From Oceaniovalibus guishaninsula JLT2003 (GTDB taxonomy: Bacteria; Pseudomonadota; Alphaproteobacteria; Rhodobacterales; Rhodobacteraceae): a stretch of 64,000 bases of DNA. Positions 5,171-58,759 of the stretch are shown here, piece after piece (positions within the stretch are counted from its first letter, which is position 1; every line of letters begins with the position of its first letter). The stretch spans positions 124,001-188,000 of the forward strand of contig NZ_AMGO01000007.1 in NCBI RefSeq assembly GCF_000299575.1. The letters run 5' to 3'. A model generated the notes under the pieces. That model did no database searches, was not told the origin of the DNA, and saw only the letters and a list, made by a program, of their open reading frames with translations. Made by a program: the position numbers and the translations under genes.

Positions 5171-5174
5171 GTGC

Positions 5175-6401
5175 CTAGTCCTTCAGCTTCGACAGCAGCA
5201 TCGACCCGTTCGTGCCGCCGAACCCGAACGAATTGGTCATCACGGTATCCAGCCCAGCATCGGCCACCGTCCGCGTCGCGATCTCACCGGGCCGGATCCC
5301 GTCGTCCAGGTTCTCGACATTGATCGACGGCGCGATAAAGTCGTCCTTCAGCATCAACAGGCAATAGACGGCCTCCTGCGCGCCGGTGGCGCCCTGGCTG
5401 TGGCCGGTCATCGACTTGGTCGAACTGATCGGCGGCTGGTCGTCGCCGAAGACGCGGCGCACGGCCTCGACCTCGCCCACATCGCCCACCGGCGTGCTGG
5501 TGCCGTGCGCGTTGATATAGCCCACGCGCCGCCCCTCGGGCAGCGTCTTCATCGCCAGCCGCATCGCCCGCTCGCCGCCTTCGCCCGACGGGGCCACCAT
5601 GTCGTGCCCGTCGCTGGTGGCGCCGAAGCCCGTGACCTCGGCATAGATATGGGCGCCGCGCGCTTGCGCGCGTTCCAGATCCTCCAGCACCACCATGCCG
5701 CCGCCGCCGGCGATGACGAACCCGTCGCGGTCGCGGTCGAAGGCGCGGCTGGCGCGTTCGGGCGTGTCGTTGAACTTGGACGACATCGCGCCCATCGCGT
5801 CGAAAAGGCACGACAGCGTCCAGTCCAGCTCCTCTCCGCCGCCCGCGAACATCACGTCCTGCGTGCCAAGCTGGATTTGCTGCGCCGCCATCCCGATGCA
5901 ATGCAGCGAGGTCGAACAGGCGCTGGTGATCGAGAAGTTCATCCCCTTGATGCGGAACGCCGTCGCCAGGTTGGCGCTGACGGTGGACGACATCGCCTTG
6001 GGCACCGCGAACGGCCCGATCCGCTTGGTGGCACCCGTCTGCAATACTGTCTGGTGCGCCGCGAAGATCGCACTGGTGGACGGCCCGCCCGATCCCGCGA
6101 TCAGCCCCGTCGAGGGGGTCGAGACCTCGGCCTCGGTCAGCCCCGCATCGGCGATGGCCTGCCCCATCGCGATATGGGCATAGGCCGCGCCCGGCCCCAT
6201 GAACCGCAGCGCGCGCTTGTCCACATGGTCGGCCACGTCGATTTTCAGCGTGCCCGCGACGCGGCTGCGAAACCCGTGCTCGGCCATCTCGGCCGACGCC
6301 TCGATCCCCGACCGCCCGGCCTTCAGCGCCTCCGCAACCTCGGCGGCATTGTTCCCGATGGGCGACACGATGCCCAGACCTGTGACGACGACGCGGCGCA
6401 T
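5175..6401 (-). CDS. fabB: 3-oxoacyl-[acyl-carrier-protein] synthase I
   Basis: A 408-residue condensing enzyme that elongates acyl-ACP with malonyl-ACP and is needed for unsaturated fatty acid synthesis. The Cys-His-His triad is complete: Cys162 in SACSTSLHC, His299 in NAHGTSTPVGD and His334 in KSMTGHSQGATG. The glycine-rich end SFGFGGTNGSM is also present. The start ATG at 6401 follows AAAGGAGCG, and the longer open frame upstream is not coding. It is followed by fabI 4 bases later. Its normal partner fabA lies 980 bases upstream on the same strand, beyond an inserted opposite-strand gene. Confidence 0.95.
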   Translation of the reverse strand: MRRVVVTGLGIVSPIGNNAAEVAEALKAGRSGIEASAEMAEHGFRSRVAGTLKIDVADHVDKRALRFMGPGAAYAHIAMGQAIADAGLTEAEVSTPSTGLIAGSGGPSTSAIFAAHQTVLQTGATKRIGPFAVPKAMSSTVSANLATAFRIKGMNFSITSACSTSLHCIGMAAQQIQLGTQDVMFAGGGEELDWTLSCLFDAMGAMSSKFNDTPERASRAFDRDRDGFVIAGGGGMVVLEDLERAQARGAHIYAEVTGFGATSDGHDMVAPSGEGGERAMRLAMKTLPEGRRVGYINAHGTSTPVGDVGEVEAVRRVFGDDQPPISSTKSMTGHSQGATGAQEAVYCLLMLKDDFIAPSINVENLDDGIRPGEIATRTVADAGLDTVMTNSFGFGGTNGSMLLSKLKD

Positions 6402-6530
6402 GAACGCTCCTTTGTTCTGTCGAACACGCTTGTAGAGGAACCGGCAAGACCGGGGCAAGCGGTCAGGCTTGCCCGTACCCGGCATGCGTCCTAGCGGTTG
6501 CAAAAGCGACAATGCGCGAGGATGCGAACG

Positions 6531-7373
6531 ATGAGAAAAAGGTTCCCCGAGGCGATCGGCTGGGCCGTGAGCGTGATCGTAATTGCTTCTGTGGGTGCCC
6601 TGATCTGGTGGAAGATCGGCGGCCTGGACGGGAACGGCCTCGACTGGACGCCCGTTTCGTCTCTGCTTTTCAACGAATGGGGCGATTTCCTTGCCGGTAT
6701 CTGCGGAACTCTGGCATTGATCTGGGTCGTGATCTCGACGCATCGGCAAGGAACGGAACTGGCAGGTCAGGCGAAGGAACTCGCGAACCAGACCTCCGCG
6801 CTCAATACGCTCGGCGAGGCGACCAAGGAGCAGTCCGTCACCCTGAAAAGGCAGATGCGTCATCTCGAAGGCCAGTCCGACGCGCTGCGCGATCAGGCCG
6901 ACGCATTGAAGCAGTCGCTTACGGGGCAACGGATCATCGACGAATGGAACGACCTCAAGCTCATCGCCGAAACGCTGCGCGAAATCCTTCCGACCGAGGG
7001 TTATCCGGCATGGACGACTTATGACGGAACGGCGTCGATCCCGATGACCTTTACCGGCGCGACGCGTGAAGAGATGAACGATTGGTCGGATTTCAGGTTT
7101 CTTCTGCGAACCGCCGGCGGTCTGAAACATCCCGTAGACAGGCTGAGGAAATGCAGGGCCGCCGGACTGCGCCCTGTCCTGACGAAGGGCAGCAGGTCGA
7201 AGATACGGCGCGCCGCCGCCCTGTGCGAGGATTTCCTCGCTCTGGTTGGGCGCCAGCCCGCTCACCGCCGCCATATCCTGAAAGAGGCGCAGGTGGACAA
7301 ATGGCTGGAGCACCTGAACGAGATCGCCGATCCGTTCTATTGGCCGAATGCGGGTGGTGGCAAGCGGACCTGA
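6531..7373 (+). CDS. Unknown membrane-anchored coiled-coil protein inserted between fabB and fabA
   Basis: I do not recognise this 280-residue protein. Two hydrophobic segments are visible: residues about 9-28 (WAVSVIVIASVGALIWW) and about 48-67 (WGDFLAGICGTLALIWVVIS). A stretch rich in Q, A, L, E and K follows (about 70-125, including ELAGQAKELANQTSAL) and should form a coiled coil. The C-terminal 150 residues are soluble with conserved-looking Trp and Arg. This two-TM plus coiled-coil layout is common in phage or island-borne proteins of unknown role. ATG at 6531 is preceded by GAGG at a long spacing; ATG 6522 and TTG 6498 are alternatives. Its stop lies 8 bases from the fabA stop. Base composition is lower in GC than fab genes, which suggests acquisition. 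Confidence 0.65.
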   Translation: MRKRFPEAIGWAVSVIVIASVGALIWWKIGGLDGNGLDWTPVSSLLFNEWGDFLAGICGTLALIWVVISTHRQGTELAGQAKELANQTSALNTLGEATKEQSVTLKRQMRHLEGQSDALRDQADALKQSLTGQRIIDEWNDLKLIAETLREILPTEGYPAWTTYDGTASIPMTFTGATREEMNDWSDFRFLLRTAGGLKHPVDRLRKCRAAGLRPVLTKGSRSKIRRAAALCEDFLALVGRQPAHRRHILKEAQVDKWLEHLNEIADPFYWPNAGGGKRT

Positions 7374-7381
7374 CGGGCGCC

Positions 7382-7894
7382 TCAACTCTCGCTCAATGCC
7401 ACCTTCATGTCCTTGACCTGATAGATCACCTCGCCGTCCGCCTCGACGCGGCCGTCGGCGACGCCCATGGTCAGGCGGCGGCTTTGCACGGCCTTGGTGA
7501 AATCGACGAAATAGCGCAGCATCTTGCGGTCGGGACGGACCATGCCGGTCAGCTTGACCTCGCCCACCCCCAGCGCATAGCCGCGCCCCTGCCAGCCGCG
7601 CCAGCCAAGGTTGAACCCCGTCAACTGCCACAGCCCGTCCAGCCCCAGGCATCCCGGCATGATCGGATTGCCCGGAAAGTGACACTCGAAGAACCACAAA
7701 TCCGGCGCGATGTCGAACTCGGCCACGACATGCCCCTTGCCATGCGCCCCGCCATCGCCCGAAATGTCGGTGATCCGGTCCATCATCAGCATCGGCGGCA
7801 GCGGCAATTGCGCGTTGCCGGGGCCGAACAGCTCGCCCCGCGCGCAGGCCAGCAGGTCGTCGCGGTCAAAGGCGGTGCGCAGTGTCTGCGGCAT
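7382..7894 (-). CDS. fabA: 3-hydroxydecanoyl-[acyl-carrier-protein] dehydratase/isomerase
   Basis: A 170-residue hot-dog-fold enzyme that dehydrates 3-hydroxydecanoyl-ACP and isomerises it to the cis-3 form, the branch point to unsaturated fatty acids. The active-site signature [16 protein letters not shown] carries His72 and Asp86. Length equals the family norm (about 171). ATG at 7894 follows GGAGGG. It faces away from irr, with 119 bases between the start codons that must hold both promoters. Iron-responsive Irr sitting next to fabA is a common arrangement in this group. The fabB and fabI genes that usually follow directly are displaced by an inserted plus-strand gene. Confidence 0.95.
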
Positions 7895-8013
7895 GGTCCC
7901 TCCGGGGCTGTGGCCGATCACGCACGGTTTACCACCCGGCATCCGGGCGGTGCAAGGCCGGGGCGGGCGGGAAGGGGGAATGGCCATTGAAACCGGGGCC
8001 TCCCCCCGGCTAT

Positions 8014-8463
8014 ATGGGACTTATGGACAGAACGCCGACCTCCCTCCCGCCCGATGCGGCCCGCAAGGGCGCTGCCTGGCTGCGCCGGTCCGATCTGCGC
8101 CCGACGCGGCAGCGCGTGGCGCTGGCGGCCCTTCTGGTGGGCGACGGGCAGGATCGCCACGTCACCGCCGAAAGCCTGCATGCCGCCAGCCGTTCGGCAG
8201 GCGAATCCGTCTCGCTGGCCACCGTCTACAACACCTTGCGCGCCTTCTGCGGCGCCGGGCTGATGCAGGAAGTCACGGTGGACGGCGCGCGCAGCTATTT
8301 CGACACCCGCATGGACGACCATCCGCATTTCTTCTGGGAAGACAGCGCGTCGCTCGTCGATGCGCCGGCGACCGAGATGCAGATCACCCGTCTACCCGCC
8401 CCGCCCGACGGGGCCGAAATCGTCGGCGTGGATGTCGTCATCCGCCTGCGCAAGAAGGATTGA
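8014..8463 (+). CDS. irr: Iron response regulator Irr (Fur family)
   Basis: A 149-residue Fur-superfamily regulator. The N-terminal winged helix is [14 protein letters not shown] to [19 protein letters not shown], and the dimerisation part contains [18 protein letters not shown]. The DxHPHFFxED stretch instead of the Fur HHDH zinc/iron site is the mark of Irr, which senses iron through haem status and represses or activates iron and haem genes in alphaproteobacteria. Two starts are possible, 8014 (MGLMDRTP) or 8023 (MDRTP); I give the longer. It is divergent from fabA and is followed 4 bases later by a MliC-like gene. Confidence 0.88.
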
Positions 8464-8467
8464 CCCG

Positions 8468-8824
8468 ATGAAGACCGCCCGCCTGATCGCGGCTTTCTGC
8501 CTGATCGCCGCCCCGGCCGCCGCCATGGCCGAAGCGACGCTTTCCATTCCCCTGACGCTCGGGCCCGACAGCCAGATCCTGACCTCGCGCTATTCCTGCG
8601 CCGGCGGCGATCCCTTCACGGTCCAGTATGTGAACACCGACGCCAACACCCTTGCGCTTATCCCGATCGACGGGGCAGGGCGGGTTTTCGTGAATGTCGT
8701 GTCCGGCTCGGGGTCGCGCTATGTCTCGGGGTCCCATGAATGGTGGGTGAAGGGCGACGACGCCACGCTGACCGACCAGTTGCAGGACGGCTCGGCGCAG
8801 GATTGCACGACCGTCTCCGAGTGA
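8468..8824 (+). CDS. MliC-family periplasmic lysozyme-inhibitor-like protein
   Basis: A 118-residue exported protein. Residues 1-22 are a signal peptide (KTARLIAAFCLIAAPAAAMAEA) without a lipobox. The mature part has the MliC/COG3895 pattern: an early Cys in SRYSCAGGDPF, VQYVNTD, then SGSGSRYVSGSHEWWVKGD with the Ser-Gly and Trp-Trp-x-Lys-Gly signature, and a late Cys in QDCTTV that should form a disulphide. MliC proteins inhibit C-type lysozymes in the periplasm. It starts 4 bases after irr and is probably co-transcribed with it, though a functional tie to iron is not evident. Confidence 0.8.
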   Translation: MKTARLIAAFCLIAAPAAAMAEATLSIPLTLGPDSQILTSRYSCAGGDPFTVQYVNTDANTLALIPIDGAGRVFVNVVSGSGSRYVSGSHEWWVKGDDATLTDQLQDGSAQDCTTVSE

Positions 8825-8918
8825 CGCCGCGGCGTTTTCCGGCGCAACCTTGATCCCGGTCAAGGCGGGCCCGCGCCGGCCGGCCTAGCCCTTCCCCGAA
8901 CCATAGGAGCGCCGTTTC

Positions 8919-9353
8919 ATGTTCAAGACTATTCTGGTTGCCGTCGACGGGTCCGACCATTCGCACAAGGCCGTTCGCTATGCCTGCGATCTGGCCAACA
9001 AATACGATGCCGCCCTGCATGTCGTGCATGTCCCCGAGATCGAGGTCAGCACCCTGACGCTGGGCGCCGCCGCCATGGACATCCTGCCGACCGAGGACCG
9101 GATCGAGGCGCTGGGCCGCCCCGTCGCCGACAAGGCGCGCGGCTGGGCCGAGGCCGCGGGCCGCACGCCCGATTCCGTCAGCATCCTGCGCGGCGACGCG
9201 GCGCAGGCGATCCTGGACGCCGTGGACGAAAAGGGCGCCGACCTGATGGTGTCGGGCCGTCGCGGCTTCGGCGGCCTGCGCGGCCTGCTGCAAGGGTCCG
9301 TCTCGCAAAAGCTCGCCTCCCACGCCACCTGCCCGGTGCTGACGGTCCGCTGA
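8919..9353 (+). CDS. Universal stress protein, UspA family
   Basis: A 144-residue single-domain USP. The N terminus FKTILVAVDGSDHSHKAV is the first strand and acidic ATP-contacting loop, and the C terminus SGRRGFGGLRGLLQGSVSQ matches the G-X2-G-X9-G(S) ATP-binding signature, so it is predicted to be the nucleotide-binding type. The end CPVLTVR is the dimer strand. ATG follows ATAGGAGCG. It is a monocistronic gene between the irr-mliC pair and a long non-coding gap. A GC-rich hairpin follows its stop. Confidence 0.92.
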   Translation: MFKTILVAVDGSDHSHKAVRYACDLANKYDAALHVVHVPEIEVSTLTLGAAAMDILPTEDRIEALGRPVADKARGWAEAAGRTPDSVSILRGDAAQAILDAVDEKGADLMVSGRRGFGGLRGLLQGSVSQKLASHATCPVLTVR

Positions 9354-9374
9354 CCGCTCGCTTGCCCCGCGGAC

Positions 9375-9399
9375 CGGCGGCCTGTCATACGGGCCGCCG
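9375..9399 (+). terminator. Hairpin after the universal stress gene
   Basis: CGGCGGCC at 9375-9382 pairs perfectly with GGCCGCCG at 9392-9399 around a 9-base loop, 22 bases after the usp stop. No T-run follows. Position and stem strength fit a terminator; this is inference. Confidence 0.45.
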
Positions 9400-48864: not shown

Positions 48865-49140
48865 ATGGCTGACACCCACACAAGAGCCCGCACAGACGGG
48901 TCAGGATACTGGAAGGCGAACCTGCGCCTCATCTATATCTGCCTCGCCATCTGGGCGCTGGTCAGCTTCGGCTTCGGCATCCTGCTGCGCCCGCTGCTGT
49001 CGGGCATCCGCATCGGCGGGACGGATCTGGGCTTCTGGTTCGCGCAGCAGGGCAGCATCCTGGTCTTCCTCGCGCTGATCTTCTTCTACGCCTGGCGCAT
49101 GAACAAGCTCGACCGCGATTTCGGCGTCGAGGAGGAATAA
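48865..49140 (+). CDS. DUF4212 small subunit of a sodium:solute symporter
   Basis: A 91-residue membrane protein with two helices (LRLIYICLAIWALVSFGFGIL and GSILVFLALIFFYAWRM) and the DUF4212 features YWKANLRL, GFWFAQQGS and MNKLDRDFGVEE. It is the accessory subunit encoded with VC_2705-type symporters. ATG 48865 follows GGGAGGAGACC. The symporter starts 6 bases after its stop. Confidence 0.9.
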   Translation: MADTHTRARTDGSGYWKANLRLIYICLAIWALVSFGFGILLRPLLSGIRIGGTDLGFWFAQQGSILVFLALIFFYAWRMNKLDRDFGVEEE

Positions 49141-49146
49141 GGCATC

Positions 49147-50925
49147 ATGGATCAGTATACCCTCAACCTGCTGGTCGTGGGCGCCAGTTTCGCGCTTTAT
49201 ATAGGCATCGCCATCTGGGCGCGGGCCGGAACCACGGCCGAATTCTATGCCGCCGGACGCGGCGTGCATCCGGTAATGAACGGCATGGCGACCGCCGCCG
49301 ACTGGATGTCGGCCGCGTCGTTCATTTCGCTCGCCGGCATCGTCGCCTTCGCGGGCTATCCGGCCAGCGCCTATCTGATGGGCTGGACGGGCGGCTATGT
49401 GCTGCTGGCGCTGCTGCTGGCGCCCTATCTGCGCAAATTCGGCAAGTTCACCGTGCCCGAATTCATCGGCGACCGGTTCTACAGTTCGGGCGCGCGTCTG
49501 GTGGCGGTGATCTGCCTCATCATCGCGTCCACCACCTATGTCATCGGGCAGATGACCGGCGCGGGCGTCGCCTTTTCGCGCTTTCTGGAAGTGTCGAACG
49601 AAACGGGGCTCTATATCGGCGCGGCCATCGTCTTCATGTATGCGGTTCTGGGCGGCATGAAGGGCATCACCTATACGCAGGTGGCGCAGTATGTCGTTCT
49701 GATCGTCGCCTATACGATCCCGGCGATCTTCATCTCGCTGCAACTGACCGGCAATCCGCTGCCGCCGCTGGGCCTGTTCAGCGACTACACCCCGACCGGA
49801 GAGCCGTTGCTGTCGCGGCTGAACGAAGTGGTGCAGGAGCTGGGCTTCACCTCCTATACTGGGCAGGACGGATCGCCGCTGGCGGTGATGAACATGGTGC
49901 TGTTCACGCTGTCGCTGATGATCGGCACGGCAGGCCTGCCGCACGTCATCATCCGCTTCTTCACCGTGCCGCGCGTGGCCGATGCGCGGTGGTCGGCGGG
50001 ATGGGCGCTGGTCTTCATCGCGCTGCTTTACCTGACCTGCCCCGCCGTGGGCGCGATGGCGCGGCTGAACATCGTCGATACGATCTATCCCAACGGCGTC
50101 TCGGCCGAGCCCATCGCCTATGACGAGCGGCCCGACTGGATCCGCAACTGGGAAGTCACCGGCCTCATCAACTACGAGGACAAGAACGGCGACGGCCGGA
50201 TCGAATACTACAACGAAGCCAACCCCGCCTTTGCCGAAGCGGCCGCTGCGCGCGGCTGGGAGGGCAACGAGCTGACCGTCAACAACGACATCCTGGTGCT
50301 GGCCAACCCCGAGATCGCGCAGCTTCCCGGCTGGGTCATCGCGCTGATCGCGGCGGGGGGTCTCGCGGCGGCGCTGTCCACGGCGGCGGGGCTGCTGCTT
50401 GCGATCTCGTCGGCGGTCAGCCACGACCTGATCAAGGCGTCGATCAATCCCAACATCTCGGAAAAGGGGGAATTGCTGGCCGCCCGGATCTCGATGGCGG
50501 TGGCGATCGCGGTGGCGACGTGGCTGGGCCTGAACCCGCCGGGCTTTGCGGCGCAGACCGTGGCACTGGCCTTCGGGATCGCGGCGGCGACGATCTTCCC
50601 GGCCTTGATGATGGGCATCTTTTCCACGCGCATCAACAATTCGGGCGCCGTGGCGGGGATGCTGACCGGCCTGATCTTCACGGTGGTCTACATCTTCCTG
50701 CACAAGGGCTGGTTCTTCATCCCCGGCACCAACCAGTTCGAGGATACGCTGACCGGGTCGCTGCTGGGCATCCAGTCCACGGCCATCGGCGCGGTGGGGG
50801 CGATCCTGAACTTCATCGTCGCCTTCATCGTGGCGCGCAGCACCAGCCCGACGCCCGAGCATATCAAGGAGCTGGTCGAAAGCGTCCGCGTTCCGCGCGG
50901 CGCCGGGGCGGCGACGGCCCACTGA
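49147..50925 (+). CDS. Sodium:solute symporter, acetate/organic-acid type (VC_2705 subfamily)
   Basis: A 592-residue membrane transporter of the SSS family with about 13 helices. Motifs include the substrate/sodium region AADWMSAASFISLAGIVAFAG, YVIGQMTGAGV and a late AALSTAAGLLLAISSAVSHD. Between helices a soluble stretch carries an EF-hand-like loop DKNGDGRIEYYN at 345-356 (position 12 is Asn instead of Glu). With DUF4212 it forms the two-part transporter proposed to import acetate or related monocarboxylates. The downstream genes for a cNMP/CBS nucleotidyltransferase and a PAS-exonuclease follow in the same direction. Confidence 0.9.
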   Translation: MDQYTLNLLVVGASFALYIGIAIWARAGTTAEFYAAGRGVHPVMNGMATAADWMSAASFISLAGIVAFAGYPASAYLMGWTGGYVLLALLLAPYLRKFGKFTVPEFIGDRFYSSGARLVAVICLIIASTTYVIGQMTGAGVAFSRFLEVSNETGLYIGAAIVFMYAVLGGMKGITYTQVAQYVVLIVAYTIPAIFISLQLTGNPLPPLGLFSDYTPTGEPLLSRLNEVVQELGFTSYTGQDGSPLAVMNMVLFTLSLMIGTAGLPHVIIRFFTVPRVADARWSAGWALVFIALLYLTCPAVGAMARLNIVDTIYPNGVSAEPIAYDERPDWIRNWEVTGLINYEDKNGDGRIEYYNEANPAFAEAAAARGWEGNELTVNNDILVLANPEIAQLPGWVIALIAAGGLAAALSTAAGLLLAISSAVSHDLIKASINPNISEKGELLAARISMAVAIAVATWLGLNPPGFAAQTVALAFGIAAATIFPALMMGIFSTRINNSGAVAGMLTGLIFTVVYIFLHKGWFFIPGTNQFEDTLTGSLLGIQSTAIGAVGAILNFIVAFIVARSTSPTPEHIKELVESVRVPRGAGAATAH

Positions 50926-50986
50926 CCCAACGATCCCGTCCCCATCCGCCCCGGCGGGTGGGGACCGCAATAGCGGACCGTCCACG

Positions 50987-52792
50987 ATGACCATGCGCGA
51001 TTTTCTTGCCGATGTGCCGCCGTGGAACCGTCTGCCCGAAGACCGCCTGGCCGATGTCGCCTCGTCGTTCGAGACGCGGCAATTCGCGCCCGGCGATACC
51101 GTTTTCCGCATAGGCGAGCCGCTTGACGGACTTTACGTGCTGCGATCCGGCGCGGTCGAGGTGACGGATGCCTCTGGCGCGCGGCTGTCGTCGCTGACCG
51201 CAGGCAATACGTTCGGCGAACGCGGATTGATCCGCGACGGCCTTGCCGCCACCACCGTCCATGCGATTGCGCCGACGAAACTGTTGCTGCTGCCCGCCGC
51301 CCGGTTCAGGGCGTTGACGGACGGCGATCCGGCCCTGCATGCCTTTTTCAGCCGCCAGCGCGGCGCGCCCGTTCGCCGGCCGGCCTTGGCCGAGACGCGG
51401 GTCGAAACGCTGATGACCGCCCGACCCCGGACGATCGCCCCCGATCTGCCGCTTTGCGACGCCGCGCGGCTGATGCGGGACGACCGCATTTCATCGCTGA
51501 TGGTGGTTGAGGACGGCACTTTGCAAGGCATCCTGACGGTGCGCGACGTGTCCAACCGCGTCGTGGCCGAACGGCTGGATGCCCAGTCCCCCGTCGCGCG
51601 CGTGATGACGCGCGATCCCGTGACCCTGCCGCCCGATGCCATCGGGTCGGACGTGCTGCATCTGATGATGGAGCGCGGCATCGGCCATGTGCCCATCGTC
51701 GGGGCGGGCGGTCTTGTCGGGATCGTCACCCAGACCGACCTGACCCGGTTTCAGGCCGATACCTCGGCCCAGATCATCGGCGATGCCGCCCATGCGCCCG
51801 ATACCGAGGCGCTGGCCCGGATCACCGCCCGTATCCCCCAGCTTCTTGCGCAGCTTGTCGCGGCGGGCAGCCGGCACGACACGGTGACGCGGCTGATCAC
51901 CGACGTTGCCGATGCCGTCACACGCCGCCTGCTGGCCTTGGCCGAGGCCCGGCTGGGCCCGCCCCCGGTGCCTTATCTGTGGCTTGCCTGCGGCAGCCAG
52001 GGCCGGCAGGAACAGACGGGCCGGTCGGATCAGGACAACGTGCTGATGCTGTCCGACGACGCGACCGATGCCGACGATTCGTGGTTCGCGGAACTGGCGC
52101 GGTTCGTATCCGAAGGGCTGGACCGCTGCGGCTATGTCTTCTGTCCGGGCGACATGATGGCGACCAACCCGCGCTGGCGTCAGCCGGTGCGCGTCTGGCG
52201 GCGCTATTTCCAGGGGTGGATCGCCACGCCGGATCCGATGGCGCAGATGCTGGCCTCGGTCATGTTCGACCTGCGCCCCATCGGCGGCGACCGCAGCCTG
52301 TTCGCCGGACTTCAGGCCGAAACGCTGGAGGCGGCATCGCGCAATTCGATCTTCGTGGCGCATATGGTGTCCAATTCGCTGTCGCATGCGCCGCCGCTGA
52401 ACATCTGGCGCGGGCTTGCCACGGTGCGGTCGGGCGAACACCGTGCCCGGATCGACCTGAAGATGAACGGCGTCGTTCCGGTCGTCGACCTGGGCCGTAT
52501 CTATGCCTTGCGCGGGCGGATCGGCGATGTGGGCACCCGCGCGCGGATCGCCGCCGCGCGCGAGGCGGGGGTCATTTCCGACAGCGGGGGGCGCGATCTT
52601 CTGGATGCCTACGACCTGATCGCCGCGACACGGCTGGATCATCAGGCGGCGCAGGTCAGGGCCGGGCAGGCGCCTGACAACTTCATGGCGCCCGCCGATC
52701 TGAGCGAGTTCGAGCGCAGCCATCTGCGCGATGCCTTTGTCGTGGTCCGCACGATGCAGGCCGCGGCGGCGCAGGGAAGGGGCATCCCGTGA
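50987..52792 (+). CDS. cNMP-binding, CBS-pair, DUF294 nucleotidyltransferase-like signalling protein
   Basis: A 601-residue soluble protein. Residues about 10-120 are a cyclic-nucleotide-binding fold (FAPGDTVFRIGEPLDGLYVLRSG, GNTFGERGLI). Residues about 137-260 are a CBS pair (VETLMTARPRTIAPD, VARVMTRDPVTLPP, GHVPIVGAGGLVGIVTQTD). The DUF294 nucleotidyltransferase-like part has the GlnD-type motif ACGSQGRQEQTGRSDQDN near 330, with two acids that could bind metal. A helical DUF294_C domain follows to the end. It might transfer a nucleotide to a protein or small molecule in response to adenylates. It is 61 bases after the symporter and 19 bases before the next gene. Activity is unproven. Confidence 0.88.
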   Translation: MTMRDFLADVPPWNRLPEDRLADVASSFETRQFAPGDTVFRIGEPLDGLYVLRSGAVEVTDASGARLSSLTAGNTFGERGLIRDGLAATTVHAIAPTKLLLLPAARFRALTDGDPALHAFFSRQRGAPVRRPALAETRVETLMTARPRTIAPDLPLCDAARLMRDDRISSLMVVEDGTLQGILTVRDVSNRVVAERLDAQSPVARVMTRDPVTLPPDAIGSDVLHLMMERGIGHVPIVGAGGLVGIVTQTDLTRFQADTSAQIIGDAAHAPDTEALARITARIPQLLAQLVAAGSRHDTVTRLITDVADAVTRRLLALAEARLGPPPVPYLWLACGSQGRQEQTGRSDQDNVLMLSDDATDADDSWFAELARFVSEGLDRCGYVFCPGDMMATNPRWRQPVRVWRRYFQGWIATPDPMAQMLASVMFDLRPIGGDRSLFAGLQAETLEAASRNSIFVAHMVSNSLSHAPPLNIWRGLATVRSGEHRARIDLKMNGVVPVVDLGRIYALRGRIGDVGTRARIAAAREAGVISDSGGRDLLDAYDLIAATRLDHQAAQVRAGQAPDNFMAPADLSEFERSHLRDAFVVVRTMQAAAAQGRGIP

Positions 52793-52811
52793 CGCTGCCG
52801 ACGGCGCCCCG

Positions 52812-53330
52812 ATGATACTGGAGCTTGTCGCCGTGATCACGGCAGGCGTCGGGGCGGGCGGCGTCGTGCTGCTGGTGCGGCGGATCGTGCCGCCTCTGCC
52901 GCGCTGGCTGATGCCCGTGGTCGCCGGCGCCGCGATGCTGGCCGTGTCGATTTCGCTGGAATATTCGTGGTTTCCACGGACCGAGGCCGCCCTCCCGCAA
53001 GGAGTGGAGGTGGCGAGCCAGCGGCAGAACCGCGCCTTCTGGCGGCCCTGGACCTATGCGGTGCCCTTCGTCGATGGCTTCATCGCGGTGGACCGGGCCG
53101 GCATTCTGCGCAACGATGCGGCCGAGGGGCAACGCCTGGCGAACCTCTATGTTTTCGGTCGCTGGACGCCGACCCGCCGGATGCGGGCGGTCTTCGATTG
53201 CGCGGGTCGGCGGCGCGCCGATCTGACCTCTGCCGACGCGATGGGCGAGGACGGGATCGTCGCCGAACACGCCTGGCGCAGCCTTGCGCCCGACGATGCG
53301 GTGGCGGCAGCGGTCTGCGAAGGGGGATGA
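52812..53330 (+). CDS. Small membrane protein of unknown function in the symporter/exonuclease cluster
   Basis: A 172-residue protein. Two hydrophobic segments (LVAVITAGVGAGGVVLLV and WLMPVVAGAAMLAVSISL) lie within the first 50 residues, followed by EYSWFPRTEAALPQGV, FWRPWTYAVPFVDGF and DCAGRRRADLT. I do not recognise a named family with certainty. It is tightly packed between the CBS/DUF294 gene and the PAS-exonuclease gene, with 1 base to the latter, so it probably works with them, perhaps as a membrane partner. Confidence 0.7.
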   Translation: MILELVAVITAGVGAGGVVLLVRRIVPPLPRWLMPVVAGAAMLAVSISLEYSWFPRTEAALPQGVEVASQRQNRAFWRPWTYAVPFVDGFIAVDRAGILRNDAAEGQRLANLYVFGRWTPTRRMRAVFDCAGRRRADLTSADAMGEDGIVAEHAWRSLAPDDAVAAAVCEGG

Positions 53331-53331
53331 C

Positions 53332-54741
53332 ATGCGCGCGGGCTTGCGGCTGAGGATTTTCGCCTTCTTCCTTCTGGTCGCCGCCGCCTCGATCGCCGCG
53401 GTTGGGCTGGGTGCCTGGCTCGCTTGGCGCCGAATGCCCGAGGCTTTGCCGGCGCTGCTGTCGGCCGGCGCGATGTCGGCATTCGGGATCGCGCTGGTCA
53501 CGATGCTGGTCTGGCTGCTGTTCGACGAACATGTGGCGAAAGGCGTCACGCGGCTGGCGGCAGGGCTGCGCGCGCGGGCGCATGGCGGGGTGGTCGCGGA
53601 TCTGGATTCGGGGCCGGTCCGGCATCTGGGGGATCTGGGGCCCGCCGCCGCCGCGATCTGCGCGCAGCTTGCCCAGGCCGAGGCGCGCGCCGCGACCCGC
53701 CTTGCGGACCAGACGCGCAGGATGGCAGCCGACAACGCCCATCTGGCCGCGATCCTGTCCGAGATCCCCGTGGCCATCATGGTAGTGGACGAACGGGACC
53801 GCATCCGCCTTTACGACCGTCAATGCGTCCATGTCCTCGGCCATGTCTCGGCGCTGTGTCTGGGCCGGTCGGTCCATGACTGGTTCGACCGCGATTCCCT
53901 GCGCGCGGCGCTGGAGTTGCTGGACGAACGCAGCTTTGCCGATGTCGATCTGCTGCTGCGCGACGGCCGGACGGTCGTGGCGACGCGGATCCGGCCCGCG
54001 GCGCAGGGGCGCGGCTATATGCTGGCGATGGAGGTGGAGGACGACGTCGTCGCCGAACGACCGCTGGTGTTCGAGTTCGACGTCAATGCCGGCCATCTGC
54101 GCGGCAGCGTCGGCGAAACGCCGCTGTCGGAACTCGCCTGCGTGATCTTCGACACCGAGACCACCGGCCTCGATACCGCGCGGGACGAGATCGTGCAGAT
54201 CGGCGCGGTGCGGGTGCTGAACGGGACGGTCGTGCCGGGCGAAAGGTTCGACATGCTGGTCAATCCCGGCCGCCCCATTCCCCCCCTGTCTGCCCGCGTT
54301 CACGGCATAACGGACGACATGGTCCGCGACGCGGCCGATGTCGAAACCGCCCTGCGGCGTTTCCATGATTTCGCCCGCGATGCGGTGCTGGTGGCGCATA
54401 ATGCGCCGTTCGATCTGGCCTTCCTGCGCCGGCGCGAGGAGGGGCTGGGCCTGGCCTTCGACAACCCGGTGCTCGACACGGTGCTTCTGTCGGCGGCCCT
54501 GTTCGGACAGGCCGAAACGCATACTTTGGACGCCATCGCCGAGCGTCTGAACGTGCGCATCGACGGTTCTGCCCGGCATACGGCCTTGGGCGATGCGATC
54601 GCGACGGCCACTGTCCTGCTGCGACTGATCCCGATGCTGGAAGCGCAGAATATCCGCACCTTCGGCGACGCGGTGACGGCCATGCGCCGTCACGAACGCC
54701 TGCTGCCCGACGCAAACCGCCAGGCCGACGCCAAGGCGTGA
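53332..54741 (+). CDS. Membrane PAS-domain protein with a DnaQ-type (DEDDh) exonuclease domain
   Basis: A 469-residue protein laid out like a sensor kinase. Two helices at about 9-32 and 40-64 are followed by a HAMP-like helical linker (to about 130) and a PAS domain (about 140-240: LAAILSEIPVAIMVVDERDRI, GRSVHDWFDRD). The output domain is a 3'-5' exonuclease of the DNA polymerase III epsilon type, with all metal and catalytic residues: Asp274 and Glu276 in FDTETTGLD, Asp361 in HNAPFDLAFL, His416 and Asp421 in HTALGDA. ATG 53332 follows AGGGGGATGAC. It would degrade RNA, DNA or a short nucleotide signal at the membrane; which one is unknown. Confidence 0.87.
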   Translation: MRAGLRLRIFAFFLLVAAASIAAVGLGAWLAWRRMPEALPALLSAGAMSAFGIALVTMLVWLLFDEHVAKGVTRLAAGLRARAHGGVVADLDSGPVRHLGDLGPAAAAICAQLAQAEARAATRLADQTRRMAADNAHLAAILSEIPVAIMVVDERDRIRLYDRQCVHVLGHVSALCLGRSVHDWFDRDSLRAALELLDERSFADVDLLLRDGRTVVATRIRPAAQGRGYMLAMEVEDDVVAERPLVFEFDVNAGHLRGSVGETPLSELACVIFDTETTGLDTARDEIVQIGAVRVLNGTVVPGERFDMLVNPGRPIPPLSARVHGITDDMVRDAADVETALRRFHDFARDAVLVAHNAPFDLAFLRRREEGLGLAFDNPVLDTVLLSAALFGQAETHTLDAIAERLNVRIDGSARHTALGDAIATATVLLRLIPMLEAQNIRTFGDAVTAMRRHERLLPDANRQADAKA

Positions 54742-55659
54742 CTAGAAGCGATCCACCGGCAGCTTGAGGTAGCGGTGGCCGTCGGCTTCGGCATCCGGCA
54801 AGCGCCCGCCGCGCAGATTGATCTGCAACGCGGCCAGCATCCGGTCGGGCAGGGGCAGCGTCGCGTCGCGCTCCTTCCGGCGGCGGATCCAGTCGGCGCG
54901 ATCCGTGCCCTCGCGCACATGGATGTTGTTGGCGCGATGGTCTGCCACGCTCGCCTCCCATTCGGGGCGGTGCCGGTCGGACGTGCCGTAATCGTGCCCC
55001 ACGAACAGACGCGTGTCGTCGGGCAGGGTCAGGATGTTCTGAATGGACTCCCACAACTCGGCCGCATTACCCCCCGGAAAGTCCGTGCGCGACGTGCCCG
55101 AATCGGGCTGCATCAGCGTGTCATGCGTGAAGGCCGCATCGCCGCAGACGAAGCTGACAGAGCCCAGCGTATGGCCGGGCGACAGCATCACGCGCAGCGC
55201 CAGCGCACCCAGGAGCAGCGTCTCGCCATCCTCCAGCAGGCGGTCGAAGTCGCGATCCGGGTCGAACAGTGTCGGCGCGTTGTAAATCCCGGCCCAGATG
55301 CCGGCGATCTGGCGCACCTTTGCGCCGATGGCGTTGGGGGCGCCCGTCCGCTGCCGAAGCAGCGCCGAAGCCATGACGTGATCGGCATGAGGATGTGTGT
55401 CGAGGATCCAGCGCACCGATAGACCGTTATCGGCGACGACCTTCAGCACCTGATCGCAGCTTTCGGTCGAAAACGCATAGCTGCCCGGATCGAAATCCCA
55501 CACGACGTCGATCAGCGCCGCCTCGCGCGATCCGGGGTCGGCGCAGACATACTGGATCGACCCGGTATCGGGTTCGTAGATGCCCCAGACATCCGGGCTG
55601 TTTCCACCGCGCGAGGGCGATTTGCGGATGACGGGCTGCTTCAGGTCGTCGTCGGACAT
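54742..55659 (-). CDS. MBL-fold hydrolase, glyoxalase-II/persulfide-dioxygenase-like
   Basis: A 305-residue metallo-hydrolase. Metal ligands lie in LDTHPHADHVMASALL (about 117), LSPGHTLGSVSFVCGD, FTHDTLMQPDSGTSRTDFPGG and FVGHDYGT. The motif order fits the glyoxalase II / ETHE1-like branch acting on thioesters or persulfides. ATG 55659 follows AGAGGTG. Its stop codon abuts the stop of the convergent PAS-exonuclease gene with no space. A longer upstream frame overlapping the tad-like genes is not coding. Confidence 0.82.
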   Translation of the reverse strand: MSDDDLKQPVIRKSPSRGGNSPDVWGIYEPDTGSIQYVCADPGSREAALIDVVWDFDPGSYAFSTESCDQVLKVVADNGLSVRWILDTHPHADHVMASALLRQRTGAPNAIGAKVRQIAGIWAGIYNAPTLFDPDRDFDRLLEDGETLLLGALALRVMLSPGHTLGSVSFVCGDAAFTHDTLMQPDSGTSRTDFPGGNAAELWESIQNILTLPDDTRLFVGHDYGTSDRHRPEWEASVADHRANNIHVREGTDRADWIRRRKERDATLPLPDRMLAALQINLRGGRLPDAEADGHRYLKLPVDRF

Positions 55660-55836
55660 CGGGCACCTCTCGGTCTTCGTTCCCGCTCGAAGATGGCCGC
55701 CCGGCGACGGTTTTGCCAGCCTGTCCCGGCGTGAACGGGACGAAGGGGCGGTTTCGGCTCTCGGTCGCCATAATTGCGCCGCATTGGGGTGGACATATCG
55801 GAGTTCAGCGGACTTTTCCGCGAAAGGGAAGGCGGC

Positions 55837-56403
55837 ATGTCTTTTCGGCCAGTCGATCACCAGGCGCCCCGGCGCCCCGGCCCGGTCCGCAGGTTCCTGC
55901 GGGACCGCGACGGATCGGCGACGGTCGAGTTCGTGATCCTGTTTCCGGTCTTCATGACGCTCATGCTGGTCGCCATCGAAAGCGGCGTGACCATGACGCG
56001 GCAGATGCTGCTGGAACACGGCGTGGACAGGGCCGTGCGCGAGATCCGGCTGAACATGGTACCGGCGCCGACCGTCGCGGAACTGAAGAAAAGCATCTGC
56101 CGGAACGTCAGCGTGATGAGCAATTGCATGGCCGACGTGAAGGTCGAGATGGTCCGCGTCGATCCACGCGACTGGCGCCCCTTGCCGACCACGCCCGATT
56201 GTGTCGACCGCGGCGACCCCGACCGCGGCGACCGCACCGTGGTCTTCGGAAAGTCGAACCAGCTGATGCTGTTGCGCGTCTGCGCGCTGTTCGATCCGAT
56301 CCTGCCCGGATCGTTGCTGGGCCAGAAACTGGTGACGTCCCAAGGGGCGGGTTTTGCCGTGGTCACGCTTTCCGCATTCGTGCTCGAACCGACGGAGACC
56401 TGA
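55837..56403 (+). CDS. TadE-like pilus/envelope assembly protein
   Basis: A 188-residue protein. A basic cytoplasmic start leads to the prepilin-like segment RDGSATVEFVILFPVFMTLM, with the conserved Glu in the hydrophobic stretch, as in TadE minor pilins. Cys pairs (SICRNVS, SNCMADV, PDCVDR, RVCALF) suggest disulphides in the periplasm. ATG 55837 follows GAAAGGGAAGG; 55774 is possible. The next gene starts one base after its stop. No other tad/cpa genes are in the window. Confidence 0.78.
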   Translation: MSFRPVDHQAPRRPGPVRRFLRDRDGSATVEFVILFPVFMTLMLVAIESGVTMTRQMLLEHGVDRAVREIRLNMVPAPTVAELKKSICRNVSVMSNCMADVKVEMVRVDPRDWRPLPTTPDCVDRGDPDRGDRTVVFGKSNQLMLLRVCALFDPILPGSLLGQKLVTSQGAGFAVVTLSAFVLEPTET

Positions 56404-56404
56404 C

Positions 56405-58111
56405 ATGGGACAGGCATGGCGATTGTTGACGGCGGCGCTCGGCCGGTTCGGTCGGTCCACCGATGGCGGCTTCACGATCTTCTCGCTTTACATGTTCGTC
56501 CTGATGCTGATTGTCGGCGGTCTGGGCGTCGATTTCATGCGGGTAGAGCGTGACCGGGTCCGGTTGCAGGCGGCGCTCGACCGCGCGGTGCTTGCCGCCG
56601 CAGCGATCGACCAGAAGCGCGACCCCGAAACCGTGCTGCGCGACTACATGGCCAAGGCCGGGATGGAACAGCATCTGACCGAGGTGAAGGTCGCCAGCGC
56701 GCTGGGCGCAAGGCAGGTTTCGGCGACGGCCAAGCTGATGGAGCGGACCTTCTTCCTCGGGTTGGTCGGTCTCGACACGCTGCCGGTTGTCGCCACGACG
56801 ACGGCCGAGGAAGCTGTGGATTATCTCGAGGTCGCGCTGGTCCTCGACGTTTCGGGGTCCATGCGGGGGTCGCGGATCAACGACCTGCAAAATGCCGCGC
56901 GAAAATTCGTCGAGCTTGTGATGCCGGAAAACCAGGTCGACCCGGCCGATGGCCTGACCGCGATCTCCATCGTGCCCTATGCCACGACCGTCAATGTCGG
57001 ACGCGACCTGCTGTCGCGGTTCACGGTCAATCGGTTTCACGGCTATTCGAACTGCGTCTTCTTCAAGCCCGAAGTCTTCGCAAAACTCGCCCTGCCGCCG
57101 TCGGACGCCATCGACCAGTTGGAACATGTGGCGCTGTCGGGGTCCGATCTGGAACCGCATCCCTCCGGCGGGGGACTTTACAGGATCGCCACGCCGACCT
57201 GCCCCCGCGCGGCGCCGACCGGCGGGACAGAAAAGAACGCGATCCTGCCCTGGGCCACTGCTCGGGCGCCGCTGCTGGCCGCGATAAACGGGCTGACGGC
57301 CGATGGCCGGACGGGCATCGACATCGGCTTCAGATGGGGAACGGCCCTGGTCGATCCCAGCGTGCGCAGCGCCGTCACCGATACTGTCGCCAAAGATGGC
57401 CGGGCGACGCTGCTCAAGGGTTTTCCGCTTTCCTACGATCCCAAGAACGTGTCGAAGGTCGTCGTGCTGATGACCGATGGCGAAATGGTGTCGGACAAGA
57501 ACCTGAGAAAGGAGCTTCGCGGCGGCGCATCGAACATCTTCTACGATCCCAAGACGAACCGTCATTCGCTGCTGCTGCGGGGCAAGAAGGTCGTGCGCCT
57601 CAAGAAAGGCAATCAGGACGACACCCAGCCCGATCTCTGGTATCATATCGAGGCGGGCAAGGGGCCGGTCGATTACCCGGACACGGCCTTGGGCGACAAA
57701 TGGCGTTGGACGAACACGGATAACGGCACGGGTCCGCATAATGGGCTGAACCGCCTCGATCATCCCGATGTTTTCGACCGCCTGCACCTGGCCAGCGTAA
57801 AGGCGATGGTGTTCGAACCCAACAAGTCCTTTTTCTCCAGCGATGAATGGACCATCTACGGGTCCCCTGATGTCAGCTATAACGACAACACGAAAGCGAA
57901 GGCGCGGCTGTTGCAGCTTTGTTCCCTGGCAAGAAATCAGGGCATTGCAGTCTACACCATCGCAATGAATGCACCCAGCAAGGATGCCCAAACGCTGATG
58001 TCCGATTGTGCGTCCAAGCCCGGCTATTATTTCGACGTGAAGGACCGCGAGATCGAGGAGGCATTTTCCGTCATCGGCCGCCGGATCGCCGAATTGCGGC
58101 TGACCAGATGA
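56405..58111 (+). CDS. TadG-like protein with von Willebrand factor A domain
   Basis: A 568-residue protein. Residues about 17-50 form the TadG/Flp-like anchor (DGGFTIFSLYMFVLMLIVGGLGVDFMRVE). A VWA domain begins near 140, with the MIDAS motif LVLDVSGSMRGSR and later VVVLMTDGEM. A segment with TNRHSLLLRGKKVVRLKKG and DNTKAKARLLQLCSLARN continues to the C terminus. TadG-type proteins help anchor Flp pili or secreted structures. It overlaps the following gene by 4 bases (ATGA). Confidence 0.82.
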   Translation: MGQAWRLLTAALGRFGRSTDGGFTIFSLYMFVLMLIVGGLGVDFMRVERDRVRLQAALDRAVLAAAAIDQKRDPETVLRDYMAKAGMEQHLTEVKVASALGARQVSATAKLMERTFFLGLVGLDTLPVVATTTAEEAVDYLEVALVLDVSGSMRGSRINDLQNAARKFVELVMPENQVDPADGLTAISIVPYATTVNVGRDLLSRFTVNRFHGYSNCVFFKPEVFAKLALPPSDAIDQLEHVALSGSDLEPHPSGGGLYRIATPTCPRAAPTGGTEKNAILPWATARAPLLAAINGLTADGRTGIDIGFRWGTALVDPSVRSAVTDTVAKDGRATLLKGFPLSYDPKNVSKVVVLMTDGEMVSDKNLRKELRGGASNIFYDPKTNRHSLLLRGKKVVRLKKGNQDDTQPDLWYHIEAGKGPVDYPDTALGDKWRWTNTDNGTGPHNGLNRLDHPDVFDRLHLASVKAMVFEPNKSFFSSDEWTIYGSPDVSYNDNTKAKARLLQLCSLARNQGIAVYTIAMNAPSKDAQTLMSDCASKPGYYFDVKDREIEEAFSVIGRRIAELRLTR

Positions 58112-58674
58112 TGACCGGGTTTCTGCGCGACGAATCCGGGACGCTGTCGCTTGAGGCGGTGATCGTCTTTCCGCTGCTGATCTGGGCGACGCTTGGCATG
58201 TATGTGTTCTTCGACGCCTTTCGCAGCAGTTCCGACAGCGAACGCGCAGCCTATGCCATTTCCGACATGCTGAGCCGCGAGAAAAGCTATGTGACGCCGG
58301 AATACCTCACTGCGCTTCACAACGTGCAGAAGGTTCTGTCGAATGCCCGGTTCGACACCCGCATCCGAACATCGGTCATCGGATGGAACAAGGCCGCGGC
58401 GGATTACCAGTTGCGTTGGTCCAAAACCAGCGGATCGCTCGGCGCCCTGCAACAATCCGACCTGCAAGCGGCCACGCTGCGCGCCCGGTTGCCGCTGATC
58501 GCGGATGGCGACCAGATGATTCTGCTGGAAACCTTCACCGATTACAGTCCGCCGGTGAATTTTGGGCTGGACCCGATGACGCTGGAAAACTTCGTCGTCG
58601 TCCGGCCCAGGCAAACCGCACGGCTTTGCTGGAACTCGCAGAACGACGGGACGTCCGCGACCGAGACCTGTTGA
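58108..58674 (+). CDS. TadE/TadF-like minor pilin protein
   Basis: A 188-residue protein whose N terminus FLRDESGTLSLEAVIVFPLLIWATLGMYVFF has the pilin-like Glu-containing hydrophobic segment. The rest is a soluble periplasmic domain with few cysteines. ATG 58108 overlaps the VWA gene stop; ATG 58111 is equally possible. Together with the two genes upstream it forms a TadE-TadG-TadF-like trio. tRNA-Gly follows on the opposite strand. Confidence 0.75.
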   Translation: MMTGFLRDESGTLSLEAVIVFPLLIWATLGMYVFFDAFRSSSDSERAAYAISDMLSREKSYVTPEYLTALHNVQKVLSNARFDTRIRTSVIGWNKAAADYQLRWSKTSGSLGALQQSDLQAATLRARLPLIADGDQMILLETFTDYSPPVNFGLDPMTLENFVVVRPRQTARLCWNSQNDGTSATETC

Positions 58675-58684
58675 GGGAACCAAA

Positions 58685-58759
58685 TGGAGCGGGCGATGAG
58701 ATTCGAACTCACGACCCTAACCTTGGCAAGGTTATGCTCTACCCCTGAGCTACGCCCGC
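58685..58759 (-). tRNA. tRNA-Gly (anticodon GCC)
   Basis: Read on the minus strand, the acceptor GCGGGCG pairs with CGCCCGC, the D-arm is GCTCAGGGGTAGAGC, the anticodon arm is TAACCTTGCCAAGGTTA with GCC, and the T-arm is GTGAGTTCGAATCTCAT. A discriminator T and encoded CCA end the molecule at 58685. The cloverleaf is complete. Confidence 0.96.

Follow-up and report, generated by a model that had tools for sequence, protein, structure and literature searches.

In Pseudomonas putida KT2440, the CBS-domain protein PP_0354 and the RNase_T-family protein PP_0353 are encoded in one operon, ErdR binds the pp_0354 promoter, and pp_0354 is up-regulated on acetate (PMC9927547, PMC8402216). The homologues in P. 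aeruginosa PAO1 adjoin actP and yjcH, and PP_0353 was speculated by the authors to act in mRNA degradation (PMC9927547). Deletion of pp_0353 slows growth on pyruvate, a defect reversed by complementation, as does deletion of actP-I, and deletion of pp_0354 leaves growth on pyruvate unaffected (PMC9927547). In P. aeruginosa, PA3232-PA3235 rise about 16-fold on propionate, and PA3233-PA3235 drop twofold upon propionate addition (PMC9765439). The P. fluorescens protein Pflu5625, with cyclic AMP (cAMP)-binding, CBS and nucleotidyltransferase domains, belongs to the CrbS/R regulon, has a CrbR motif in common with acs and actP, and has nucleotidylation, responding to cAMP or other molecules, as its predicted mode of action (PMC5715377). 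These papers, and the two others cited below (PMC12663964, PMC3710099), are drawn on in excerpt. Here we analyse a five-gene operon in a 64,000-nucleotide stretch of the alphaproteobacterium Oceaniovalibus guishaninsula JLT2003 (contig NZ_AMGO01000007.1, positions 124,001 to 188,000; hereafter the window), which joins a sodium/solute symporter to a DUF294 nucleotidyltransferase protein, a small membrane protein and a membrane-bound exonuclease.

We propose, with a probability of roughly 40%, that this operon imports acetate or a comparable short carboxylate, such as pyruvate, lactate or propionate, and that it carries a local switch in which a nucleotide is written on the symporter and erased from it. 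A preliminary description of this DNA, made from the sequence alone, had taken the working of the module to be undescribed. This needs correction, since the Pseudomonas operon of CBS protein and exonuclease, its location beside actP and yjcH in PAO1, its regulation by MxtR/ErdR (CrbS/R) and the suggestion that a DUF294 protein acts by nucleotidylation are already in print. A writer/eraser cycle is not proposed in the excerpts of the Pseudomonas papers (PMC9927547, PMC8402216, PMC9765439, PMC5715377). In the open-access literature searched, no DUF294 protein substrate is reported, 15 papers mention DUF294 and none mentions DUF4212, and the DUF294-exonuclease writer/eraser pair, its fusions and its link to BCCT transporters are absent from titles and abstracts.

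Results

A conserved five-gene operon

The operon is an uninterrupted plus-strand run with intergenic gaps of 6, 61, 19 and 1 bases. Its genes, in window coordinates, are:

48865-49140, plus strand: gene 1, DUF4212 / TIGR03647, sodium:solute symporter small subunit (Pfam PF13937, 1.9e-34; NCBIfam TIGR03647, 8.5e-34)
49147-50925, plus strand: gene 2, TIGR03648 "VC_2705 family sodium/solute symporter" of the SSS/SLC5 group (NCBIfam, 6.3e-246, 817 bits against a cut-off of 321)
50987-52792, plus strand: gene 3, cNMP-like, CBS, CBS, DUF294 nucleotidyltransferase and DUF294_C domains (Pfam, every domain over its cut-off; AlphaFold; Foldseek)
52812-53330, plus strand: gene 4 (P0004), 172-residue membrane protein; two hydrophobic stretches are apparent in its sequence
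53332-54741, plus strand: gene 5, membrane sensor-exonuclease (Pfam RNase_T, 4.4e-38; AlphaFold; Foldseek)

Both the run of five consecutive genes and the symporter with its DUF4212 partner had been recognised in the preliminary description, and both are borne out: gene 2 exceeds the TIGR03648 cut-off and gene 1 is its TIGR03647 partner, which places the importer in the VC_2705 family.

Of 120 genomes from the window's family, 62 have a gene 4 orthologue, and these same 62 have a strong match to gene 3, with an E-value of 1e-130 or better; among these, gene 3 of G211 has an internal stop, and gene 4 of G306 is a piece at a contig end. Both orthologues are missing from G254, a genome of the window's own genus, so the two genes come and go together. 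Among the best-scoring 40 of the 61 other gene 4 loci in the family, the five genes are complete and on one strand in 39, the fortieth stopping at a contig edge; in L078, gene 3 lies after the symporter, in the normal order. The complete set recurs in 76 of 80 named loci. Two of these 80 are cut by contig ends, and L311 and L319 hold DUF294 and the exonuclease only, with no symporter and no gene 4. The five-gene unit is thus established as real and conserved.

The family loci usually extend upstream, with acs in 35 and adk in 39 of the 40; the five lacking acs have less than 4.5 kb of sequence covered upstream of the DUF294 domain. The named loci have acs in 50 of 80 and adk in 56 of 80, and 18 are without acs despite at least 5.5 kb of covered upstream sequence. 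Acetyl-CoA synthetase produces adenosine monophosphate (AMP) and adenylate kinase recycles it, so the longer operon reads as one that imports acetate, or a closely related acid, and activates it. Judged from these neighbours of its relatives, the window importer likely takes an acetate-type substrate. Unlike most relatives, the window copy has no upstream acs or adk: the acs of this genome lies about 112 kb from the operon on the same contig, and a different contig carries the sole good match to adk, at 50% identity.

Pairing of DUF294 genes with an exonuclease across class and phylum

A sample of 398 genomes from the phylum was examined, in which DUF294 exceeds the Pfam cut-off in 285, a figure that may include GlnD matches. 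From about 150 listed DUF294 loci, with the window's family left out, 100 were analysed; these were drawn non-randomly from the higher-scoring matches, some genomes contributing more than one. A same-strand exonuclease follows DUF294 within 2.6 kb in 86 of the 100, and only five other exonuclease matches above 40 bits occur in the 1.1 Mb of these regions. Recurrence in 39/40 family loci, 76/80 named loci and 86/100 phylum pairs rules out chance neighbours, and it goes against the refuting condition that the preliminary description had set beforehand, namely a lack of co-occurrence beyond the symporter pair.

At the level of the class, the 29 best-scoring loci from 190 genomes were analysed. 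An exonuclease lies near DUF294 in 25 of them, on either side or strand, and in four the order exonuclease-CBS-DUF294-DUF294_C is fused in a single open reading frame (ORF). A tree of these fusions needs three changes; a single origin is possible, and we do not claim independent fusions. Over the 86 phylum pairs, DUF294 and exonuclease distances correlate (Mantel r 0.91, with 0 of 999 permutations as high), for which shared ancestry alone could suffice.

Three phylum loci (L192-L194, about 4950-7620) carry long DUF294 frames with no adjoining exonuclease. The one scanned, L192, has the order Cache-PAS-DUF294 and no CBS domain, and we read this type as a second, membrane-sensor kind of DUF294 enzyme.

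Association of the pairs with sodium symporters

Within the fetched regions of about 11.5 kb, an SSS symporter or DUF4212 match accompanies 41 of the 86 pairs and a BCCT transporter 21, one or the other being present for 60. The SSF/DUF4212 counts include weak matches (L201: 21 and 10 bits) on either strand, and the symporter model derives from the window type, so that distant SSS members may have escaped it. For background, 30 genomes totalling about 121 Mb were searched, yielding 178 SSF and 91 BCCT matches; because many SSF matches are broken into two, the SSF background is overstated. Of the 51 DUF294 places listed for these genomes, at least 34 have an SSF or BCCT match no more than 6 kb away, against 2.6% expected, and at least 41 have one no more than 15 kb away.

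Several genomes have DUF294 paralogues of which one lies beside SSF and one beside BCCT (G576, G349, G593, G583); G453, G665 and G634 do likewise, with additional copies farther from either. SSS and BCCT transporters share the LeuT fold and are mostly ion-coupled. Such paralogues beside different symporters are as expected for one dedicated regulator per transporter. By extension, each SSS or BCCT symporter of LeuT fold that carries such a pair might have its own nucleotidyltransferase and its own DEDDh protein de-nucleotidylase, writing and erasing a nucleotide on the symporter, with the Rhodobacterales exonuclease as the output of a histidine-kinase-like membrane sensor. We put this general transporter switch forward tentatively and regard it as somewhat unlikely.

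In L137, L218 and L219, split SSF matches occur with a DUF4212 match on the opposite strand near DUF294, a variant symporter type.

The fusions and the BCCT link bear on a different explanation, in which the DUF294 enzyme, like GlnE, erases its own tag and the exonuclease has a separate job, the two being kept together through shared carbon sources under co-regulation of the CrbR/ErdR kind. GlnE does perform both reactions (PMC12663964), acs, actP and Pflu5625 share their CrbR motif (PMC5715377), and in P. putida the phenotype appears in the exonuclease mutant only and not in that of its DUF294 partner (PMC9927547). However, the fusion in 4 of 29 class loci points to a common substrate or complex, and the linkage of the pair to BCCT transporters goes beyond acetate metabolism. 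We consider this explanation quite unlikely.

Gene 3 resembles protein nucleotidyltransferases

The following parts were located in gene 3:

51077-51319, plus strand: cNMP-binding-like domain, usual phosphate-cassette arginine absent (Pfam PF00027, 5.4e-18)
51401-51754, plus strand: CBS pair with the GxxTxxD motifs GILTVRD and GIVTQTD (Pfam; alignment)
51992-52036, plus strand: nucleotidyltransferase active-site motif GSxxRxE...DQD (homologue alignment)
52349-52771, plus strand: DUF294_C helical domain, GlnD/GlnE-type clan (Pfam PF10335, 5.9e-43; clan from PMC3710099)

DUF294 scores 166.5 bits against a Pfam cut-off of 21, and DUF294_C, which is placed in the same Pfam clan as the GlnD/GlnE helical domains (PMC3710099), scores 146.6 bits against 22.5. 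The glycine, serine and arginine of the active-site motif are kept in 140/140 aligned homologues, and each aspartate in 139/140, L215 lacking both. An AlphaFold model of gene 3 (predicted local distance difference test (pLDDT) 89.9, predicted template modelling score (pTM) 0.66) was compared with known structures using Foldseek. The N-terminal half of GlnE ranks first (1v4a; E 2.7e-9; TM-score by query 0.41, by target 0.55), its C-terminal, adenylylating half third (3k7d; E 8.6e-9) and the Rab AMPylase DrrA (6yx5) 31st among the 50 matches listed; the others shown are CBS or cyclic-nucleotide domains, or proteins containing them. Query TM-scores for GlnE and DrrA stay near 0.4 because the CBS and cNMP-like parts of gene 3 are not covered. 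Fold and active-site motif together place gene 3 with the GlnE/GlnD type.

The phosphate-binding cassette of cNMP domains has the motif GE...R(A/S). In the window domain the GE is present and the arginine is missing at the expected place; in some family rows the arginine is one place off, and most other rows are without GE or arginine. Since the cassette arginine is absent, the window domain offers no evidence of cAMP binding, and cAMP control as the main input was rejected on the lack of conservation. The cNMP, CBS and GlnD-like parts named in the preliminary description all exceed their Pfam cut-offs, with cAMP binding left unsupported. The GxxTxxD motif, which binds adenine nucleotides in other CBS proteins, is present in both CBS repeats of the window; the first is kept in nearly all of 52 aligned rows and the second in fewer.

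Some of these features could also belong to a nucleotide messenger loop, in which the DUF294 enzyme would make a di- or oligonucleotide, the cNMP/CBS domains or a partner would sense it, and the exonuclease would destroy it. Enzymes of the polymerase-beta and DEDDh folds do occur in the making and clearing of messengers, and gene 3 has CBS and cNMP-like domains. Yet no cyclic-oligonucleotide synthase (CD-NTase) appears among the 50 listed of 1546 Foldseek matches, the PADLOC matches to gene 3 are confined to its cNMP part, the cassette arginine for cyclic nucleotides is unconserved, and the four fusions and L014 have no cNMP domain by Pfam. A messenger loop is accordingly very unlikely in our estimation.

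Gene 5 combines a membrane sensor region with a DEDDh exonuclease

Two regions were delimited in gene 5:

53770-54033, plus strand: PAS-like fold (sub-threshold Pfam match; AlphaFold secondary structure)
54142-54618, plus strand: DEDDh (DnaQ-type) 3'-5' exonuclease domain with D274, E276, D361, H416 and D421 (PF00929, 4.4e-38; Foldseek)

The AlphaFold model of gene 5 (pLDDT 90.3, pTM 0.86) has two long N-terminal helices and a further helix, which we read as a coiled coil; it also shows strands and helices in a PAS-like order (residues 147-234) and the exonuclease domain. Of the membrane PAS protein ending in a DnaQ-type exonuclease that had been described earlier, the exonuclease is secure, and the PAS part agrees with the order of elements in the model while falling below the Pfam cut-off (17.5 bits against 22.6). 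The window protein has all five catalytic residues of the DEDDh group, and its exonuclease domain matches PolC, DinG, epsilon, RNase T and TREX in Foldseek.

Across 126 pair exonucleases, the exact DEDDh set is found in 71, and 53 (L144 and L162 among them) have Glu as the third acid, with the sequence HYRRIERDFL in place of HNAPFDMAFL; none of the 53 is in the family sample. The substitution hints at an activity other than plain proofreading, and it could equally reflect a weaker enzyme. All 40 family exonucleases begin with some 200 or more N-terminal residues that include two or three hydrophobic stretches, and 84 of the 86 phylum pair exonucleases have no such stretches.

Longer relatives of gene 5 occur in some family members and in L203 and L217. 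In these, weak PAS Pfam matches are followed by about 240 residues that a profile comparison aligns with histidine-kinase cores (probability 65.8%, E 5.7e-5, 208 columns, with RRP in the acceptor region; control 0.3%). This kinase-like core is absent from window gene 5, which we infer to be a shortened form of a pseudo-kinase-exonuclease. A lone receiver-domain gene precedes the long exonuclease in L069 (6863-7291, then 7305-9386) and in L203 (6581-6970, then 6983-9094), an arrangement that we read as a histidine-kinase framework whose output is an exonuclease.

An exonuclease of this kind might instead act at the level of RNA, trimming or degrading transporter or carbon-metabolism mRNA or tRNA ends, with the nucleotidyltransferase adding nucleotides to RNA, so that expression of the uptake genes is tuned. 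RNase T is among the fold matches, mRNA decay by PP_0353 was the speculation in PMC9927547, and polymerase-beta-type enzymes include RNA tailers. Against this, the listed transferase folds near gene 3 are protein AMPylases, and neither the paralogous pairs beside different sodium symporters nor the membrane-bound exonuclease of the family sample would be explained; we judge RNA-level control unlikely. It is scarcely credible that the operon is part of an anti-phage system: the PADLOC models PDC-S48, a candidate defence system, and DEDDh do match gene 5, but the match is limited to the common exonuclease domain, and the surrounding genes, which are metabolic, stay constant across the family. 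This candidate was rejected.

Gene 4 is a small membrane protein tied to the symporter

Gene 4 matches no family in Pfam, NCBIfam or PADLOC. In an alignment of 16 rows, two cysteines and an EYxW motif are invariant. Relatives were found in 33 of 396 phylum genomes, and 30 of these 33 loci were examined, 16 outside and 14 within the Alphaproteobacteria. All 16 non-alphaproteobacterial loci have a same-strand symporter match no more than 1.5 kb upstream, and in nine gene 4 is followed by a match to a kinase that, from its domain architecture, we take to be of CrbS type. In L232 this kinase has PAS, HisKA, HATPase and REC domains, SSF not being among the Pfam families listed for it; acetyl-CoA synthetase adjoins the gene 4 locus there and, by our reading of the ORFs, in L234. 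DUF294 lies upstream of gene 4 in 14/14 alphaproteobacterial loci, the sensor-exonuclease comes after gene 4 in 11 and an exonuclease before it in 2, and in the remaining locus, L326, no exonuclease was found near gene 4. We read gene 4 as belonging with the importer, and the Rhodobacterales sensor-exonuclease as occupying a slot often filled elsewhere by a sensor kinase. A search of the window genome for a CrbS-like kinase gave partial matches only (23-32% identity, mainly in the kinase core).

Beyond the operon, a minus-strand ORF (54742-56475) converges on gene 5 with the stop codons touching and resembles, by eye, a metallo-beta-lactamase-fold hydrolase (HPHADH motif). Three plus-strand ORFs at 55774-58674, resembling TadE/TadG-type pilus proteins by eye, adjoin tRNA-Gly (58685-58759).

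Discussion

Our proposal for the operon is a switch on the importer itself. Gene 3 would lower the activity of the adjacent symporter, or of a partner close to it, by attaching a nucleotide, AMP being the simplest choice, and would be governed by adenine nucleotides sensed via the CBS pair. The membrane PAS exonuclease would strip the nucleotide upon a signal at its sensor, restoring transport. Removal of a 5'-nucleoside monophosphate from a protein hydroxyl can be reasoned to be the phosphodiester cut of a 3'-5' exonuclease, with the protein in place of the rest of the strand. If the writer is inhibitory, a mutant lacking it should show no phenotype and one lacking the eraser should mimic loss of the transporter, which is the pattern published for P. 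putida; those genetics appear to fit a writer and eraser best. The loop of writer-like and eraser-like enzymes suggested in the preliminary description thus draws support from the GlnE/DrrA-like fold, the mostly intact catalytic residues, the fusions and the mutant phenotypes (PMC9927547), with the amendment that the closest folds point to a tag on a protein more than to a free oligonucleotide.

Several observations weigh against the proposal. Neither SSF/DUF4212 nor BCCT was found in the 11.5-kb region of 26 of the 86 pairs, which speaks against an absolute rule, and 14 of the 100 phylum DUF294 loci are without the exonuclease, four of them (L146, L165, L186, L188) at contig ends. Glu stands as the third acid in 53 of 126 exonucleases, and all five residues are lost in L221. 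Mutants in pp_0353, pp_0354 and actP-I grow normally on 20 mM acetate (PMC9927547), deletion of Pflu5625 has a negligible effect on acetate (PMC5715377), and the PAO1 PA3234 (actP) mutant has no propionate growth defect (PMC9765439). RNase T, itself a DEDDh exonuclease, failed to deAMPylate a SelO-modified protein, and GlnE removes its own tag (PMC12663964), so that this fold needs no separate eraser. PP_0354 is presumably a DUF294 protein, and PP_0353 and PP_0354 are likened to the window proteins by domain names and gene order only. The nucleotide tag is reported nowhere in the open-access literature searched.

Most of the higher-scoring DUF294 genes sampled pair with an exonuclease, and most pairs lie near a sodium symporter, which turns an unknown signalling protein into a specific, testable hypothesis. 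If the tag is real, nutrient importers would be switched on and off post-translationally, and the exonuclease would represent a new type of eraser.

Compared with known systems, the window shares with PP_0354/PP_0353 and with PA3232-PA3235 of the MxtR/ErdR (CrbS/CrbR) regulon a CBS protein followed by an RNase_T-family exonuclease and a link to a symporter. It differs from these Pseudomonas operons in its DUF4212/VC_2705-type symporter, in the added gene 4 and in the membrane PAS part of the exonuclease. Where the CrbS-type loci outside the Alphaproteobacteria have a kinase after gene 4 (9/16), the window has the sensor-exonuclease. Like GlnE and GlnD, whose motif is GRxE...DxD, gene 3 has this active site in a nucleotidyltransferase fold, with a C-terminal helical domain of the same Pfam clan; unlike them, it has one transferase domain, CBS and cNMP-like sensors and a separate DEDDh partner. 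DrrA/SidM with SidD resembles the window pair in joining a writer of this fold (6yx5) to a separate eraser enzyme; SidD has a phosphatase fold (PMC12663964), whereas the candidate eraser of the window is a DEDDh exonuclease. RNase Z, the deAMPylase for SelO substrates, is a nuclease that strips AMP from proteins, as proposed here for gene 5, with a different nuclease fold (PMC12663964).

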